From positions 1 to 41,482 of the IMG/VR virus record IMGVR_UViG_3300046794_000181: a stretch of 41,482 nucleotides of DNA; one strand, written 5' to 3'. The notes under the pieces are model-generated. The model worked only from the letters and a program-made list of their open reading frames with translations, was not told the DNA's origin and did not search any database. The number at the start of each line of letters is the position of its first letter. Positions within the stretch are counted from its first letter, which is position 1. A program made the position numbers and the translations under genes. The stretch comes from a virus. This document shows, piece by piece, positions 3,855 through 41,482 of the stretch.

Positions 3855-4767
3855 TGGCTTTCCTTTCGAAGTAACGTTGAACGGCTGCCATCGTCTTCTG
3901 CTGGTTCGTCGTGCCGGTCGGGACGATGGACAGTGGCTGCTGCTTGGCGCGCTTGATGAACCCATCGACCTTCGGGCCGTTACGGCAAATCAGCTCGATG
4001 TCGTCATGGATGGCCTTCTGCTCGTTGTCGCCCATGTGGAACGGCGAGAGCTTGCAGCCGTCAACCGCTTGGCAGAGGTCGGCAACGCTGTAGCCGTCGG
4101 AGAGACGAGCGCCGATAGCCTTGGCCCGCTTGTCGTCCAGCTTGGCCTGCTGATGGCCCATGGCGAGCTGCCAGTAGGCGAAAACGTCTTTCACGTCGTC
4201 GCTTGCACGGTGCTCCTTGCGGCGATCAACCTTTGCCGGCTTGGCAGGAATGATCTCGACTGGCTCGGCAACGACGACCTCGGGAGCGGCAGCGACCGGA
4301 GCGCTTTGCGCGTTGAGGGATTCAGGAATCAGGGAAGGGGAATCAGGAATCAGGTTAAGGGAATCAGCCCGAGTGCTTCCGATTTTTTCGGAAGTCGCGC
4401 CGATAGACTCAGATTCACTTGCGGAAGACTCCTGCGCCATTTCCGGCGAAGGCAGTTCCGACACCGCTTCGTTCTTGTGTGGGTTCTGATGCTTGACGAA
4501 GTTGATGATGACGATGCACTTCACATCACCAACAACGTAGCGCTTGATGAAGCCTTGAGCCTGTAGCCAGTCCAGCATGGAATTGACATCCATGCCTTCA
4601 CGGTACGGGAACACTTCGCCTTTGATGCGAAGAGGACGATCCTCAAGACGGCCTTCGCGGTCAGCGAGAACCCAAAGGCCTTCAAACAGGAGCGTGTAGA
4701 GAGGGTCAGCAACTCCGAGAACTTCGTTCTTGAAGATGGATGGTTTGATGTTGCGAGCGCGGGCCAT
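3841..4767 (-). CDS. Replication initiator (O-like winged-helix protein)
   Basis: The 308-residue protein has three parts. Residues 10-100 form a winged-helix domain typical of phage replication organisers (YTLLFEGLWVLADREGRLED, then GFIKRYVVGDVKCIVIINF). Residues 100-190 are a Ser/Pro/Ala-rich linker with a seven-residue repeat (LNLIPDS, PSLIPES) encoded by a DNA repeat array. Residues 195-290 are a helical domain (VFAYWQLAMGHQQAKLD, then CKLSPFHMGDNEQKAIHDD) seen at the C-terminus of many phage replication proteins. ATG 4767 is preferred (AAGGAG upstream) over a TTG at 4773. By analogy with lambda O it binds its own internal repeats and recruits the loader encoded next. Confidence 0.75.
   Translation of the reverse strand: MARARNIKPSIFKNEVLGVADPLYTLLFEGLWVLADREGRLEDRPLRIKGEVFPYREGMDVNSMLDWLQAQGFIKRYVVGDVKCIVIINFVKHQNPHKNEAVSELPSPEMAQESSASESESIGATSEKIGSTRADSLNLIPDSPSLIPESLNAQSAPVAAAPEVVVAEPVEIIPAKPAKVDRRKEHRASDDVKDVFAYWQLAMGHQQAKLDDKRAKAIGARLSDGYSVADLCQAVDGCKLSPFHMGDNEQKAIHDDIELICRNGPKVDGFIKRAKQQPLSIVPTGTTNQQKTMAAVQRYFERKANGAA
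4318..4367. repeat. Seven-base iteron array, probable replication origin
   Basis: On the plus strand a 7-bp unit repeats in register: GGATTCA (4318), GGAATCA (4325), GGGAAGG (4332), GGAATCA (4339), GGAATCA (4346), GGTTAAG (4353), GGAATCA (4360). Four units are identical, one has a single change, and two are spacers, giving a 21-bp higher period. The array lies inside the initiator gene, in the linker, as the lambda origin lies inside O. No strongly AT-rich unwinding stretch is next to it, which is the weak point of the call. Confidence 0.5.
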
Positions 4768-5387: not shown

Positions 5388-5639
5388 TCAGGGGATTGGG
5401 TTGGCTGTCTTCTTGCGGCGCTTGGTTAACTCAGGCCAAAGCAGCTGCCAGTCGTCTGGCCTAAGCTCTTGGCGAGTAACCTGCCCGGCCGTTTCTTTCT
5501 CGATGGCTGGGCAGTATTTGGGCGGGATTGGACGGATGCCTGTCTCTACCTGGTAGAGCATCGCGCCCGACATGCCTACTTTTTTGGCAAACGCCGTCTT
5601 ATTGATGCCTGCTAACTGCAGGTAATTTGTGAGGTTCAT
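5388..5639 (-). CDS. Cro-like HTH regulator
   Basis: An 83-residue protein with one helix-turn-helix in the YdaS/Cro manner: NLTNYLQLAGINKTAFAKKVGM, then MLYQVETGIRPIPPKYCPAIEK, where the invariant start of the recognition helix and the GxxPIPP turn are visible. The C-terminal 30 residues are basic and Trp-containing. It is the first gene leftward and diverges from the repressor. The promoter -10 (5651-5646) puts the start of transcription near 5639, at or very close to this ATG, so the message may be leaderless. A GTG at 5645 would start inside the promoter and is unlikely. Confidence 0.8.
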   Translation of the reverse strand: MNLTNYLQLAGINKTAFAKKVGMSGAMLYQVETGIRPIPPKYCPAIEKETAGQVTRQELRPDDWQLLWPELTKRRKKTANPIP

Positions 5640-5645
5640 AGCCAC

Positions 5646-5674
5646 ATAATAGCAAAGCTAGTCGCAAGACGCAA
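5646..5674 (-). promoter_or_regulatory. Leftward early promoter (PR-like) with operator
   Basis: On the minus strand TTGCGT (5674-5669), a 17-base spacer and TATTAT (5651-5646) make a good sigma70 promoter. The palindrome TAGC-AAA-GCTA (5650-5660) covers the upstream part of the -10. The same arrangement is found on the plus strand at 7035-7063, including ACTAGC-NNN-GCTATTATG, so both are almost certainly controlled by the same repressor. Confidence 0.8.
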
Positions 5675-5684
5675 TAGCGTTTAC

Positions 5685-5695
5685 TAGCTTTGCTT
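5685..5695. promoter_or_regulatory. Second repressor operator in the immunity region
   Basis: TAGC-TTT-GCTT matches the operator consensus TAGC-NNN-GCTA with one change. With the copy at 5650-5660 it forms a 12-bp inverted repeat (AGCAAAGCTAGT at 5651-5662, ACTAGCTTTGCT at 5683-5694). A half-site TAGC lies between them at 5675-5678. A further dyad, TTGTTGT (5694-5700) and ACAACAA (5706-5712), stands next to the repressor gene. The site would cover the repressor's own promoter (possible -10 TAGATA at 5701-5706), consistent with autoregulation. Confidence 0.65.
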
Positions 5696-5719
5696 GTTGT
5701 TAGATACAACAAGGTGTCT

Positions 5720-6214
5720 ATGCTTGCGCAAATGAAAAAAGAGGCAACTAGATTAGAGGAGTGGCAAGTGCAAGATGCGCAGCGTCTGCGTCAGCATTTC
5801 AATGCTCGAACAGAGACAGCGGGAGAGGGAAAAGTAATTTCCCAAATGGAGTTTGGCGCTAAGTACAACATCGGCAGCCAGGGCATGGTCTGGCAGTACT
5901 TAAGTGGCCGGCGCCCATTGAACATAAAGGCCGCAGTGGCTTTCGCTCGCGGCCTTGGCATCAAAGTGTCGGATTTTAGCCCAAACCTGGCAGCGCAGAT
6001 TGGGGCAGCATCGGAGGTTGAGTCTGAGCGCACCACCCTTCAGATTGCCAAGAAGGACGAGCAGGCGCAGCTGCAGTGGGTGACAGAGGAAGAAGCCGAG
6101 CTGTTGAGTGGTTTTCGTAACGGCTCACCAGCTCAGCGAGAGCGCGTTTTGATCTTAACCCGCTCCTTTTCGGCGAGTGTCTCGGGTGAGGTTAACCGCG
6201 ACAAGGCTAAGTGA
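5720..6214 (+). CDS. Phage repressor (CI-like) without a peptidase domain
   Basis: The 164-residue protein starts at ATG 5720 behind AAGGTG; an in-frame TTG at 5690 lies inside the operator and is unlikely. Residues 14-90 are an HTH domain (QDAQRLRQHFN, then SQMEFGAKYNIGSQGMVWQYL and GRRPLNIKAAVAFARGLG), the arrangement of many phage repressors. Residues 122-150 are a helical motif (TEEEAELLSGFRNGSPAQRERVL) found at the C-terminus of such regulators. There is no S24/LexA-type self-cleavage domain. The gene diverges from the Cro-like gene over the shared operators, which supports its role as the lysogenic repressor. Confidence 0.8.
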   Translation: MLAQMKKEATRLEEWQVQDAQRLRQHFNARTETAGEGKVISQMEFGAKYNIGSQGMVWQYLSGRRPLNIKAAVAFARGLGIKVSDFSPNLAAQIGAASEVESERTTLQIAKKDEQAQLQWVTEEEAELLSGFRNGSPAQRERVLILTRSFSASVSGEVNRDKAK

Positions 6215-6355
6215 GACAGGGCGCCGCCGAGGGAATGCCTTCGCCCAGGCCTGCATCGTAAACAGCGCCTCCTGCTGGCATTCCTCGCTCATGCCCCGGA
6301 ACGCGTCGATGATGGCCTGCTCTTGGCTGACTAGTTTAAGTATCTGATTTTCCAT
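6155..6355 (-). CDS. Microprotein resembling the repressor C-terminal motif, convergent with the repressor
   Basis: A strong GGAGG site six bases before ATG 6355 marks this as a real gene although it overlaps the repressor's last 60 bases on the other strand. The 66-residue product has the motif QEQAIIDAFRGMSEECQQEALF in residues 11-32, which aligns with TEEEAELLSGFRNGSPAQRERV of the repressor, but it has no DNA-binding part. The C-terminus is basic. It may bind the repressor and poison its multimers, or simply be a remnant of another regulator. Antisense transcription through the repressor 3' end would also be expected. Confidence 0.6.
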   Translation of the reverse strand: MENQILKLVSQEQAIIDAFRGMSEECQQEALFTMQAWAKAFPRRRPVSLSLVAVNLTRDTRRKGAG

Positions 6356-6586
6356 CCATAACCTCCAAGTAGGAGTATTCCTACGGGCGCTCTACCCATT
6401 CTATATATGTTGTTCGCGGTAAACACAGGACAACGTAACGAAATATTTCAACGCGTCCTGATGTGCCACAAAAACTACTGTACATGCATCCAGTATTTTC
6501 GGCAAGTTTAGAATGCTTAACTTTAAAACGTTGCATGAGATACATGAGATTACAGACTAGAAGCATCAACCTGAGAGGAGCAACCG
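6356..6586. promoter_or_regulatory. Divergent intergenic region with a 16-bp palindrome
   Basis: No gene is supported here. GTAGGA-GTAT-TCCTAC at 6369-6384 is a perfect palindrome immediately upstream of the ribosome site of the convergent microprotein gene and looks like an operator or an mRNA hairpin. A-T-rich sequence around 6405-6415 could hold the -10 of that gene. On the other side CATGAGAT is repeated at 6534-6541 and 6543-6550, just before the ribosome site of the plus-strand membrane protein gene. Confidence 0.4.
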
Positions 6587-6901
6587 ATGAACCGGGCATG
6601 GCAATTTGTCACTGAGTTAGCTAGTACTTTCCGGCGTGAAGTAGCCGATAAGGGAATTCCGACACTCGTAAATGCGTGGATTCTGTACGCGCTAAGTACC
6701 GCAGGACCTTGGCTCTTTCTTGTCGGTGGATACGTACTGGCAGAACTATTCGGCACATCCACCAGATCTCGGAATCTCGATTCTCAGCTCCAGATGAAAG
6801 ACGCCGAGCTACAGCGCGCAATATCCAGGATCGAAGTGCTGGAAAACGAAGTGTGGCTTATCCGCGACCGCATCGAGACCCCGGAAGTACTAGTAGACTA
6901 A
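6587..6901 (+). CDS. Single-pass membrane protein with C-terminal coiled coil (104 aa)
   Basis: GAGAGGAGC lies before ATG 6587. An amphipathic N-terminal helix (FVTELASTFRREVADKG) leads into a hydrophobic segment at about residues 29-55 (AWILYALSTAGPWLFLVGGY) and then a heptad-patterned region at 63-95 (LDSQLQMKDAELQRAISRIE). No family is recognised. It stands alone between the immunity genes and a strong terminator, so it may be expressed in the lysogen, in the manner of superinfection-exclusion genes such as rex or sie. That role is inference from position only. Confidence 0.65.
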   Translation: MNRAWQFVTELASTFRREVADKGIPTLVNAWILYALSTAGPWLFLVGGYVLAELFGTSTRSRNLDSQLQMKDAELQRAISRIEVLENEVWLIRDRIETPEVLVD

Positions 6902-6925
6902 GCTTCGCACCACCGCTCCACCATA

Positions 6926-6949
6926 AGCCCGCCACGAGCGGGCTTTTTT
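6926..6949 (+). terminator. Rho-independent terminator
   Basis: AGCCCGC (6926-6932), loop CACGA, GCGGGCT (6938-6944) and six T (6944-6949). It closes the repressor-side transcript after the membrane protein gene and insulates it from the rightward early promoter that follows. Confidence 0.85.
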
Positions 6950-7021
6950 ACGCCCCTACCCGCCTCCTCTTAGCTATTCCTCATAGCGAACCCTACCATT
7001 CGAAAAATAAATAGCGCGCAC

Positions 7022-7063
7022 ACTAGCAGAGCTATTGCACTTCTAAACTAGCGGTGCTATTAT
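7022..7063 (+). promoter_or_regulatory. Rightward early promoter (PL-like) with two operators
   Basis: TTGCAC (7035-7040), a 17-base spacer and TATTAT (7058-7063) form the promoter of the recombination arm. Two operators of the immunity type flank the -35: TAGC-AGA-GCTA at 7024-7034 and TAGC-GGT-GCTA at 7049-7059, inside an imperfect 15-bp direct repeat with a 25-bp period (7022-7036 and 7047-7061). The second overlaps the -10 exactly as in the leftward promoter at 5646-5674. Transcription should start near 7070. Confidence 0.8.
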
Positions 7064-7103: not shown

Positions 7104-7301
7104 ATGGCATGGATTGACACCACCGAGCGCCGGGACCGCGCAGCAGAGCAGGAAACCGAGATGTACCACCAGCTCTACGACGCAGAAGACGACAGCCGGC
7201 GCACTGAATGGCAAGAACAGTTCGACAGCATCCCCTACCGCAGCAACGGGGCCGACATACACAGGATCGTCATGCAGAGGATGGGAGCGATGATCGATTG
7301 A
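7104..7301 (+). CDS. Small acidic hypothetical protein, first gene of the rightward operon (65 aa)
   Basis: ATG 7104 with GAGAGGGAGCG upstream is the start; an in-frame ATG at 7062 lies inside the -10 hexamer and cannot be on the transcript. The product (MAWIDTTERRDRAAEQETEM) is highly charged and helical with many Glu, Asp and Arg. No family is recognised. Its place directly after the early promoter is that of small host-takeover or antitermination proteins in lambdoid phages, but the sequence gives no proof. Confidence 0.6.
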   Translation: MAWIDTTERRDRAAEQETEMYHQLYDAEDDSRRTEWQEQFDSIPYRSNGADIHRIVMQRMGAMID

Positions 7302-7453: not shown

Positions 7454-7576
7454 GAGCCCGTAACTCAGCCCGGTAGAGTCAAGGGCGGCTGTTAAGCCGA
7501 AAGGCATGCCGCAGGATCGAGGGACACGCGCGGCCCTCAATGGTTCTAGTCGCTGGTTCGAATCCAGCCGGGCTCG
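7454..7576 (+). ncRNA. tRNA-like RNA with an enlarged anticodon/variable region
   Basis: The ends pair as a perfect acceptor-like stem (GAGCCCG 7454-7460 with CGGGCTC 7569-7575), which extends outward to 12 bp (7449-7460 with 7569-7580). A T arm is canonical: GCTGG, loop TTCGAAT, CCAGC at 7552-7568, directly abutting the acceptor strand. A D arm is also good: ACTC, loop AGCCCGGTA, GAGT at 7463-7479. Between them, instead of a 17-nt anticodon arm and short variable loop, lie about 70 nt with a hairpin CGGC-TGTTAA-GCCG (7486-7499) and alternative stems (AGGGC 7482-7486 with GCCCT 7533-7537; GAGGG with CCCTC). No standard anticodon loop forms. It may be a tRNA pseudogene, an intron-bearing tRNA or a tRNA mimic. 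No CCA is encoded. Confidence 0.55.
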
Positions 7577-40846: not shown

Positions 40847-41034
40847 TTTGCACTCCTACCACCCCAGAGATGCGACCAACGACGACCAAAGAGGAACACA
40901 TACACGAACAAGCCATTGTGCCAATTAATCGTAAAGTTAAACGGGCGCGCCCCTTCGTTGAAGGTGATGTGACCGCGCTTGATTGCGTAAAAACCACCCC
41001 AGCGCTTCGCCATGTCTCTACCCATGTATTCCAT
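40843..41034 (-). CDS. Small hypothetical protein (63 aa)
   Basis: GGAGGGTAGGGG precedes ATG 41034. The product (MEYMGRDMAKRWGGFYAIKR) is basic, and aromatic toward the end (HNGLFVYVFLFGRRWSHLWG). No family. The start of the second copy is cut by the left edge of the window. A Trp/Phe-rich tail may associate with the membrane. Confidence 0.6.
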   Translation of the reverse strand: MEYMGRDMAKRWGGFYAIKRGHITFNEGARPFNFTINWHNGLFVYVFLFGRRWSHLWGGRSAK

Positions 41035-41037
41035 CCC

Positions 41038-41235
41038 CTACCCTCCAAAATGTGATTGCTTCAGTTTCCGATGCAGTACCCGCAGATTCACCAGCTCGCC
41101 GTACTCGTAGTCCATCTCGACATACTCACAGAGCTTGGCGTGACACTCTCTCTCGCTCATGTTCTCTGTTTCCGATGACAAGCTGGGCATGTTGGATGCT
41201 AGCCAGTCGCGGATAGTGTCGAGACATACGTTCAT
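41038..41235 (-). CDS. Small hypothetical phage protein, right allele (65 aa)
   Basis: Variant of the gene at 17-214, with Cys4 for Ser and Lys for Arg in the Cys-x3-Cys motif. It starts at ATG 41235, which overlaps the upstream stop as ATGA; a longer frame to 41274 has no ribosome site. Confidence 0.7.
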   Translation of the reverse strand: MNVCLDTIRDWLASNMPSLSSETENMSERECHAKLCEYVEMDYEYGELVNLRVLHRKLKQSHFGG

Positions 41236-41372
41236 ACGGTTTCCAGCACCTTCCCGCATTTCTCGCAGGCCCAAGCCTTGCTCATGCCGGTGTCGTAGTA
41301 GAGCGGCTCAGGGTCGCGCACATGCTCGCAGCGCCTCGACGTCCAGAAGAACCACTTCAACCACTCAAGCAC
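41232..41372 (-). CDS. Small zinc-ribbon-like protein, right allele of the swapped cassette (46 aa)
   Basis: From GTG 41372 (GAGG upstream, sequence identical to the left copy) the product has a Trp/Phe-rich start (LEWLKWFFWTSRRCEH) and a C-terminal CEKCGKV, so C-x-H plus C-x-x-C could bind one zinc ion. It replaces the unrelated 54-residue gene of the left copy between the same flanks and keeps the ATGA junction. Function unknown. Confidence 0.55.
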   Translation of the reverse strand: MLEWLKWFFWTSRRCEHVRDPEPLYYDTGMSKAWACEKCGKVLETV

Positions 41373-41385
41373 ACACACCTCGTAT

Positions 41386-41408
41386 AAAAAGAGCCCGCCG
41401 TAACGGGC
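41386..41408 (-). terminator. Terminator/attenuator, right copy
   Basis: Identical to 389-411: GCCCG, six-base loop, CGGGC and CTCTTTTT on the minus strand, just upstream of the cassette gene. Confidence 0.65.
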
Positions 41409-41482
41409 GAAGTCCAAGATCATCTTGGAGGGGAGACACTTTGTGGTGGCCGGTGCTGATCTCCGGCTTTGCATTAGTTCTA

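Follow-up and report, generated by a model that had tools for sequence, protein, structure and literature searches.

In phage lambda, the cI and cro genes diverge from a region that holds the operators of OR, a second set of operators lies at PL beyond cI, the two early promoters point outward, and the repressor binds DNA through the domain typical of CI. The S24 C-terminal domain of lambda CI provides both cooperativity and RecA-dependent (RecA-stimulated) self-cleavage. All of the architectural features, and the lambda-CI-type DNA-binding domain, recur in the 41,482-base stretch of temperate phage DNA analyzed here (the window), which differs from lambda in its operator sequence (TAGCNNNGCTA), a Cro of the YdaS family, a repressor without an S24 domain, a degenerate OR2, and a cro gene that, in addition to cI, looks leaderless.

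Three other known systems are also close in particular respects. The PaaR2/YdaS switch of CP-933P, a cryptic prophage of E. coli O157:H7, has a YdaS-family Cro opposite a short repressor, binding regions that overlap at PR/PRM, repeats of a related kind at PL, and a leaderless regulator mRNA, but its reported inverted-repeat consensus is GTTTAGTAA, with four repeats at OR, and its regulator is followed by a toxin-antitoxin operon (PMC8630535). No such operon was recognised in the window. In the immB regions of N15, PY54, and phiKO2, the N15 operators are common to the cI-cro gap and a distant promoter, and PY54 produces leaderless cI and cro mRNAs and has, in silico, a single OR site (PMC4488713, PMC4997575). 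These phages belong to another group with their own operators and Cro proteins, and the distant N15 operators overlap the repA promoter rather than that of a recombination operon. Acidovorax phage AP1 (OM049504, locus L046) carries the same operator as the window, with exact OR sites at 3878 and 3926 and a one-mismatch site between them at 3901, an exact OL site at 5718 preceded by a one-mismatch site at 5693, and a YdaS-like Cro; unlike the window, it has an S24-bearing repressor and has kept OR2. The part of the AP1 record that was inspected carries no operator annotation.

In the window, the palindrome TAGC-NNN-GCTA is the repeated unit at both outward early promoters. Exact copies of TAGCNNNGCTA occur at three positions and nowhere else: OR1 (5650 to 5660, TAGCTTTGCTA read on the minus strand), which overlaps the PR −10; OL2 (7024 to 7034, plus strand, TAGCAGAGCTA), which abuts the PL −35; and OL1 (7049 to 7059, plus strand, TAGCGGTGCTA), which overlaps the PL −10. 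An OR3-like site with one mismatch (5685 to 5695, plus strand, TAGCTTTGCTT) lies between OR1 and the start of cI. The earlier note had placed these four sites exactly, letters included, but it overlooked a degenerate OR2 at 5675 to 5685 (minus strand, AGTAAACGCTA), where a GCTA half-site alone is kept, adjoining the PR −35. The window OR therefore consists of one exact operator, one site with a mismatch, and one half-operator rather than three operators. Centre to centre, the spacing is 35 bp between OR1 and the OR3-like site and, as previously noted, 25 bp at OL.

The two promoters have the hexamers, spacing, and coordinates attributed to them earlier. PR (5646 to 5674, minus strand) combines a −35 TTGCGT (5674 to 5669) with a −10 TATTAT (5651 to 5646), and PL (7035 to 7063, plus strand) a −35 TTGCAC (7035 to 7040) with a −10 TATTAT (7058 to 7063), each across 17 bp. 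No other sequence in the window, whichever strand is read, fits TTGNNN-17-TATTAT. A generic promoter and terminator scan missed both, along with a terminator-like stem-loop between the cI operon and PL (6925 to 6949, plus strand, AAGCCCGC-CACGA-GCGGGCTT followed by a T run).

The same promoters had been said to fix the true starts of transcription, which puts a prediction too strongly. Transcription usually starts seven bases beyond the −10. By this rule PL would start at about 7070, and because only 6 nt separate the PR −10 from the cro ATG, the predicted PR start is the A of that ATG (5639). The cro mRNA of the window is thus probably leaderless. A gap of 6 or 7 nt between the −10 and the cro start was found in 33 of 39 loci examined (32 ATG and one GTG), and in a 34th (L109) inspection by eye shows an ATG at 7 nt, so that leaderless cro appears to be a general, predicted property of the operator-sharing group. 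Leaderless cI and cro mRNAs have been reported for PY54 (PMC4488713). The first small open reading frame of the PL operon (7104 to 7301, plus strand) is preceded by a Shine-Dalgarno-like GAGGGAG and is not leaderless. For PRM, a weak and uncertain candidate −10 (TG-n-TAGATA) can be placed at 5701 to 5706 on the plus strand. Over this presumed −10, between OR3 and the cI start, lies a perfect 8-bp inverted repeat at 5693 to 5713 (CTTGTTGT-TAGAT-ACAACAAG), whose GTTG..CAAC is kept with different spacing in seven close relatives (L003 to L009).

The genes on either side of OR fit a lambda-like switch. The cI-like repressor (5720 to 6214, plus strand, 164 amino acids) consists of a lambda-CI-type DNA-binding domain and a short helical tail. 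Its family profile matched lambda CI structures (1rio, the best, E = 2.9e-15; 1lmb, E = 9.4e-14), and its AlphaFold model, confident in the DNA-binding part and weaker in the tail, superimposed on the lambda repressor-operator complex 1lmb with a TM-score of 0.91 by target length at 1.6 A. By profile and predicted fold, the DNA-binding domain is a homologue of that of lambda CI. The protein matched no Pfam family, Peptidase_S24 included, and ends after the helical tail; some relatives with the same operator have repressors that do carry S24. Divergently opposite lies cro (5388 to 5639, minus strand), encoding an 83-amino-acid YdaS-family helix-turn-helix (HTH) protein that matched PF15943 (E = 1.2e-14, 54.3 bits against a cut-off of 30), phrog_35, and the solved phage Cro structures 8c7k and 8co2. 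Operators between divergent cI-like and cro-like genes, and the same operator at an outward PL beyond cI, complete the lambdoid arrangement. The gene order is also lambda-like, with a replication initiator on the PR arm and Erf on the PL arm.

Counts within the window barely exceed chance. Three exact copies of TAGCNNNGCTA compare with 0.56 expected (Poisson P of about 0.02), and copies with at most one mismatch are not enriched (10 found versus 13.6 expected). The within-window count by itself is weak evidence for an operator, so the case had to rest on comparison. Scans that started from the repressor added 13 viral and 2 genomic loci to the comparison. In L001 to L009, where repressors are 59 to 100% identical to that of the window, every locus carries an exact operator across the PR −10, together with an operator pair 25 bp apart at PL. 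In alignments of these close relatives, the operators and promoter hexamers stand out against diverged flanks, even where the relative's repressor is only about 60% identical to the window's.

More distant loci clarify the structure of OR. L014 and L015 share the operator and have a more complete OR, made up of three sites at intervals of about 25 bp, and a full three-site OR is also present in L058. The position of the window OR2 is homologous to OR2 in L014, L015, L018, L046, and L058, where a full or one-mismatch site is found; in the clade of the window, this middle site is reduced to a half-site. The third OR site is 45 to 46 bp from OR1 in L003 to L008, about one helical turn further than in the window. 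A link between loss of OR2 and loss of the S24 domain was considered and rejected, as the short repressors of L058, L060, L086, and L116 accompany an intact OR2. In the Candidimonas humi genome, which holds L015, all matches, with two mismatches at most, lie inside 2.2 kb of a single prophage immunity region. PR itself is among these matches, a direct demonstration that it is built to the same design as PL. When the initial 20 kb of the window was compared with named phages by Megablast, only matches of about 50 bp were obtained.

A pattern that used no protein information extended the comparison. It described the PL design (a site abutting the −35 and another overlapping the −10) with 20 fixed bases, for which simple base counting gives a rough expectation of less than one match in the whole collection, and it was found in 71 viral stretches of IMG/VR. 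A control palindrome, TACGNNNCGTA, placed in this frame gave 8 viral stretches versus 71; since some of its matches occur in divergent pairs and may be operators of another phage, it falls short of a clean null. Such pairs, about 785 bp apart, were seen in viral contigs L125, L128, and L129, and are possibly another phage operator family. Among 268 genomes of the Candidimonas family, the paired pattern occurred in 4 and a reversed control in none. Together, the blind pattern (most loci) and the protein search (a few) yielded 66 distinct loci totaling 696 kb.

Exact sites in these loci number 216, of which 136 are at OL and 74 belong to OR clusters; the remaining 6 are no more than background (about 9 expected by chance). 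Most OL sites were selected by the search pattern itself, but the OR sites were not, and an OR cluster is present in 36 of the 46 loci with at least 3 kb of upstream sequence. The last T of the −10, also outside the search pattern, is a T in 64 of the 66 loci. Beside the operators are genes for repressors with an S24 peptidase domain, an XRE HTH, or both, and for small YdaS- or Cro-family proteins. When clustered with a tiny database, the repressors all link into one chain, so no claim is made that unrelated repressors share the operator. The operator is common to dozens of other phages. A weight matrix trained on other phages' loci, with the clade of the window left out, ranked the window's four sites first (20.1, 18.8, 18.3, and 12.1, compared to 8.2 for the fifth-best place). 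The earlier note proposed scanning the genome and its relatives and accepted that a palindrome equally frequent elsewhere would refute it; the scan, in which OR and OL accounted for 210 of the 216 exact copies, did not do so.

Taken together, it is very likely that the palindromes serve as OR and OL operators in a lysogeny switch of the lambda type and are read by the 164-amino-acid repressor. The proposal of one operator common to PR and PL is strongly supported by this sequence comparison. The further claim that the palindrome defines the recognition site of the repressor fits the same comparison, except that the site is not the repressor's alone, as the YdaS-family Cro very probably reads it too. 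A dimer of the cI-like protein would bind TAGCNNNGCTA (more fully, AATAGCNNNGCTATT) with one HTH per TAGC half-site, covering OR1, OL2, and OL1. Where an operator overlaps the −10, it covers the first two bases of that hexamer, and OL2 sits directly against the −35; a bound repressor would therefore keep RNA polymerase off both promoters. Occupancy would silence the leftward replication arm and the rightward Erf recombination/integrase arm at once. Cro, the first product of PR, would bind the same sites, competing with and counteracting cI, probably from the OR3-like site adjoining the cI start as far as its action on cI is concerned. Each of these binding steps is modeled on lambda and CP-933P (PMC8630535). 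Because OR2 is degenerate in the clade of the window, lambda-like autoactivation of cI is doubtful, and lacking both an S24 domain and a complete three-site OR, the locus is best described as a lambda-like working but reduced member of the lambda plan; membership holds for the architecture and the DNA-binding fold.

The earlier note also suggested that the 25-bp pair could allow cooperative binding. The pair might form a unit like lambda OR1-OR2, giving a steep, SOS-responsive switch. The spacing is close to that of lambda, and OR spacings across loci are mostly 23 to 25, 35, and 45 to 46 bp, roughly whole-turn steps. However, at OL the 25 bp follows from promoter geometry, as the hexamers begin 23 bp apart and the operators are positioned by them, OL2 abutting the −35 and OL1 overlapping the −10, and the absence of S24 from the window repressor weakens the idea further. 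Similar spacing is found in L014, L046, and L087, relatives whose repressors carry S24, so the spacing does not follow the presence of that domain. The 25 bp is thus not a sign of cooperativity, and we judge a cooperative unit of this kind unlikely.

A far less probable reading is that the palindromes are mainly sites for the YdaS-type Cro, and that the cI-like protein reads a different sequence, such as the inverted repeat at 5693 to 5713. The YdaS-type Cro is the more uniform partner across operator-bearing loci, and a GTTG..CAAC repeat does precede the cI start in close relatives. But that repeat has no copy at OL, which controls PL, in the lambda plan a task of the lysogenic repressor. Moreover, one set of operators serves both cI and Cro in lambda, and in CP-933P the regions footprinted by the two proteins overlap (PMC8630535). 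That the palindromes are chance matches around AT-rich promoters, binding nothing, would suit the modest counts within the window but is already refuted, to near certainty, by the sequence comparisons: conservation at both promoters in all close relatives, the ranking by the out-of-clade matrix, and the confinement of sites to OR and OL across the 66 loci.

Other elements were observed in and around the immunity region. An open reading frame of 104 amino acids with a hydrophobic stretch (6587 to 6901, plus strand) lies between cI and PL, the position of the lambda rex genes; it had no match in Pfam or PHROG and by position only is a candidate exclusion gene. Within the PL operon, positions 7454 to 7576 (plus strand) match the Rfam tRNA model (38.1 bits against a gathering score of 29) with intact acceptor, D, and T arms and about 67 nt in place of the anticodon arm and variable region. 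ARAGORN found no tRNA in the window, and ten related loci gave no tRNA match; the cI-N interval of Hafnia phage Pocitis76 contains an annotated tRNA-Gly. RT-15 RNA (RF03018) was found on the cI strand downstream of PL in L009 (9983 to 10177, 182.7 bits) and L015 (11569 to 11758, 157.6 bits), with no match in the window. The ends of the window repeat each other (1 to 214 versus 41022 to 41235 at 96.7%, and 373 to 485 versus 41370 to 41482 at 100%, with a differing stretch between), a pattern that resembles either a circular assembly closed by a variant join or a pair of nearly identical copies.

The switch itself is familiar in the style of phage lambda; the operator TAGCNNNGCTA appeared in no phage paper among the matches listed by a limited exact-string search of the open-access literature. 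The analysis supplies, from DNA sequence alone, an operator for a large group of temperate phages and prophages whose annotation is poor; the named ones in this comparison are Acidovorax phage AP1, a prophage of Candidimonas humi, and a prophage of a Burkholderiaceae bacterium. A single pattern locates the immunity regions of these phages, orients them, and predicts both early starts, and it leads to the prediction that cro in this group is commonly translated from a leaderless mRNA, as reported for PY54. Tentatively, TAGCNNNGCTA may mark one very wide immunity group, in which repressors with very different C termini share one operator, one promoter-operator geometry, and leaderless cro, and of which the window's clade would be a stripped-down branch (OR2 lost, non-S24 repressor), possibly not SOS-induced. 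This raises the question of whether phages with the same operator exclude one another in lysogens; if such a group exists, its members could repress each other's early promoters.
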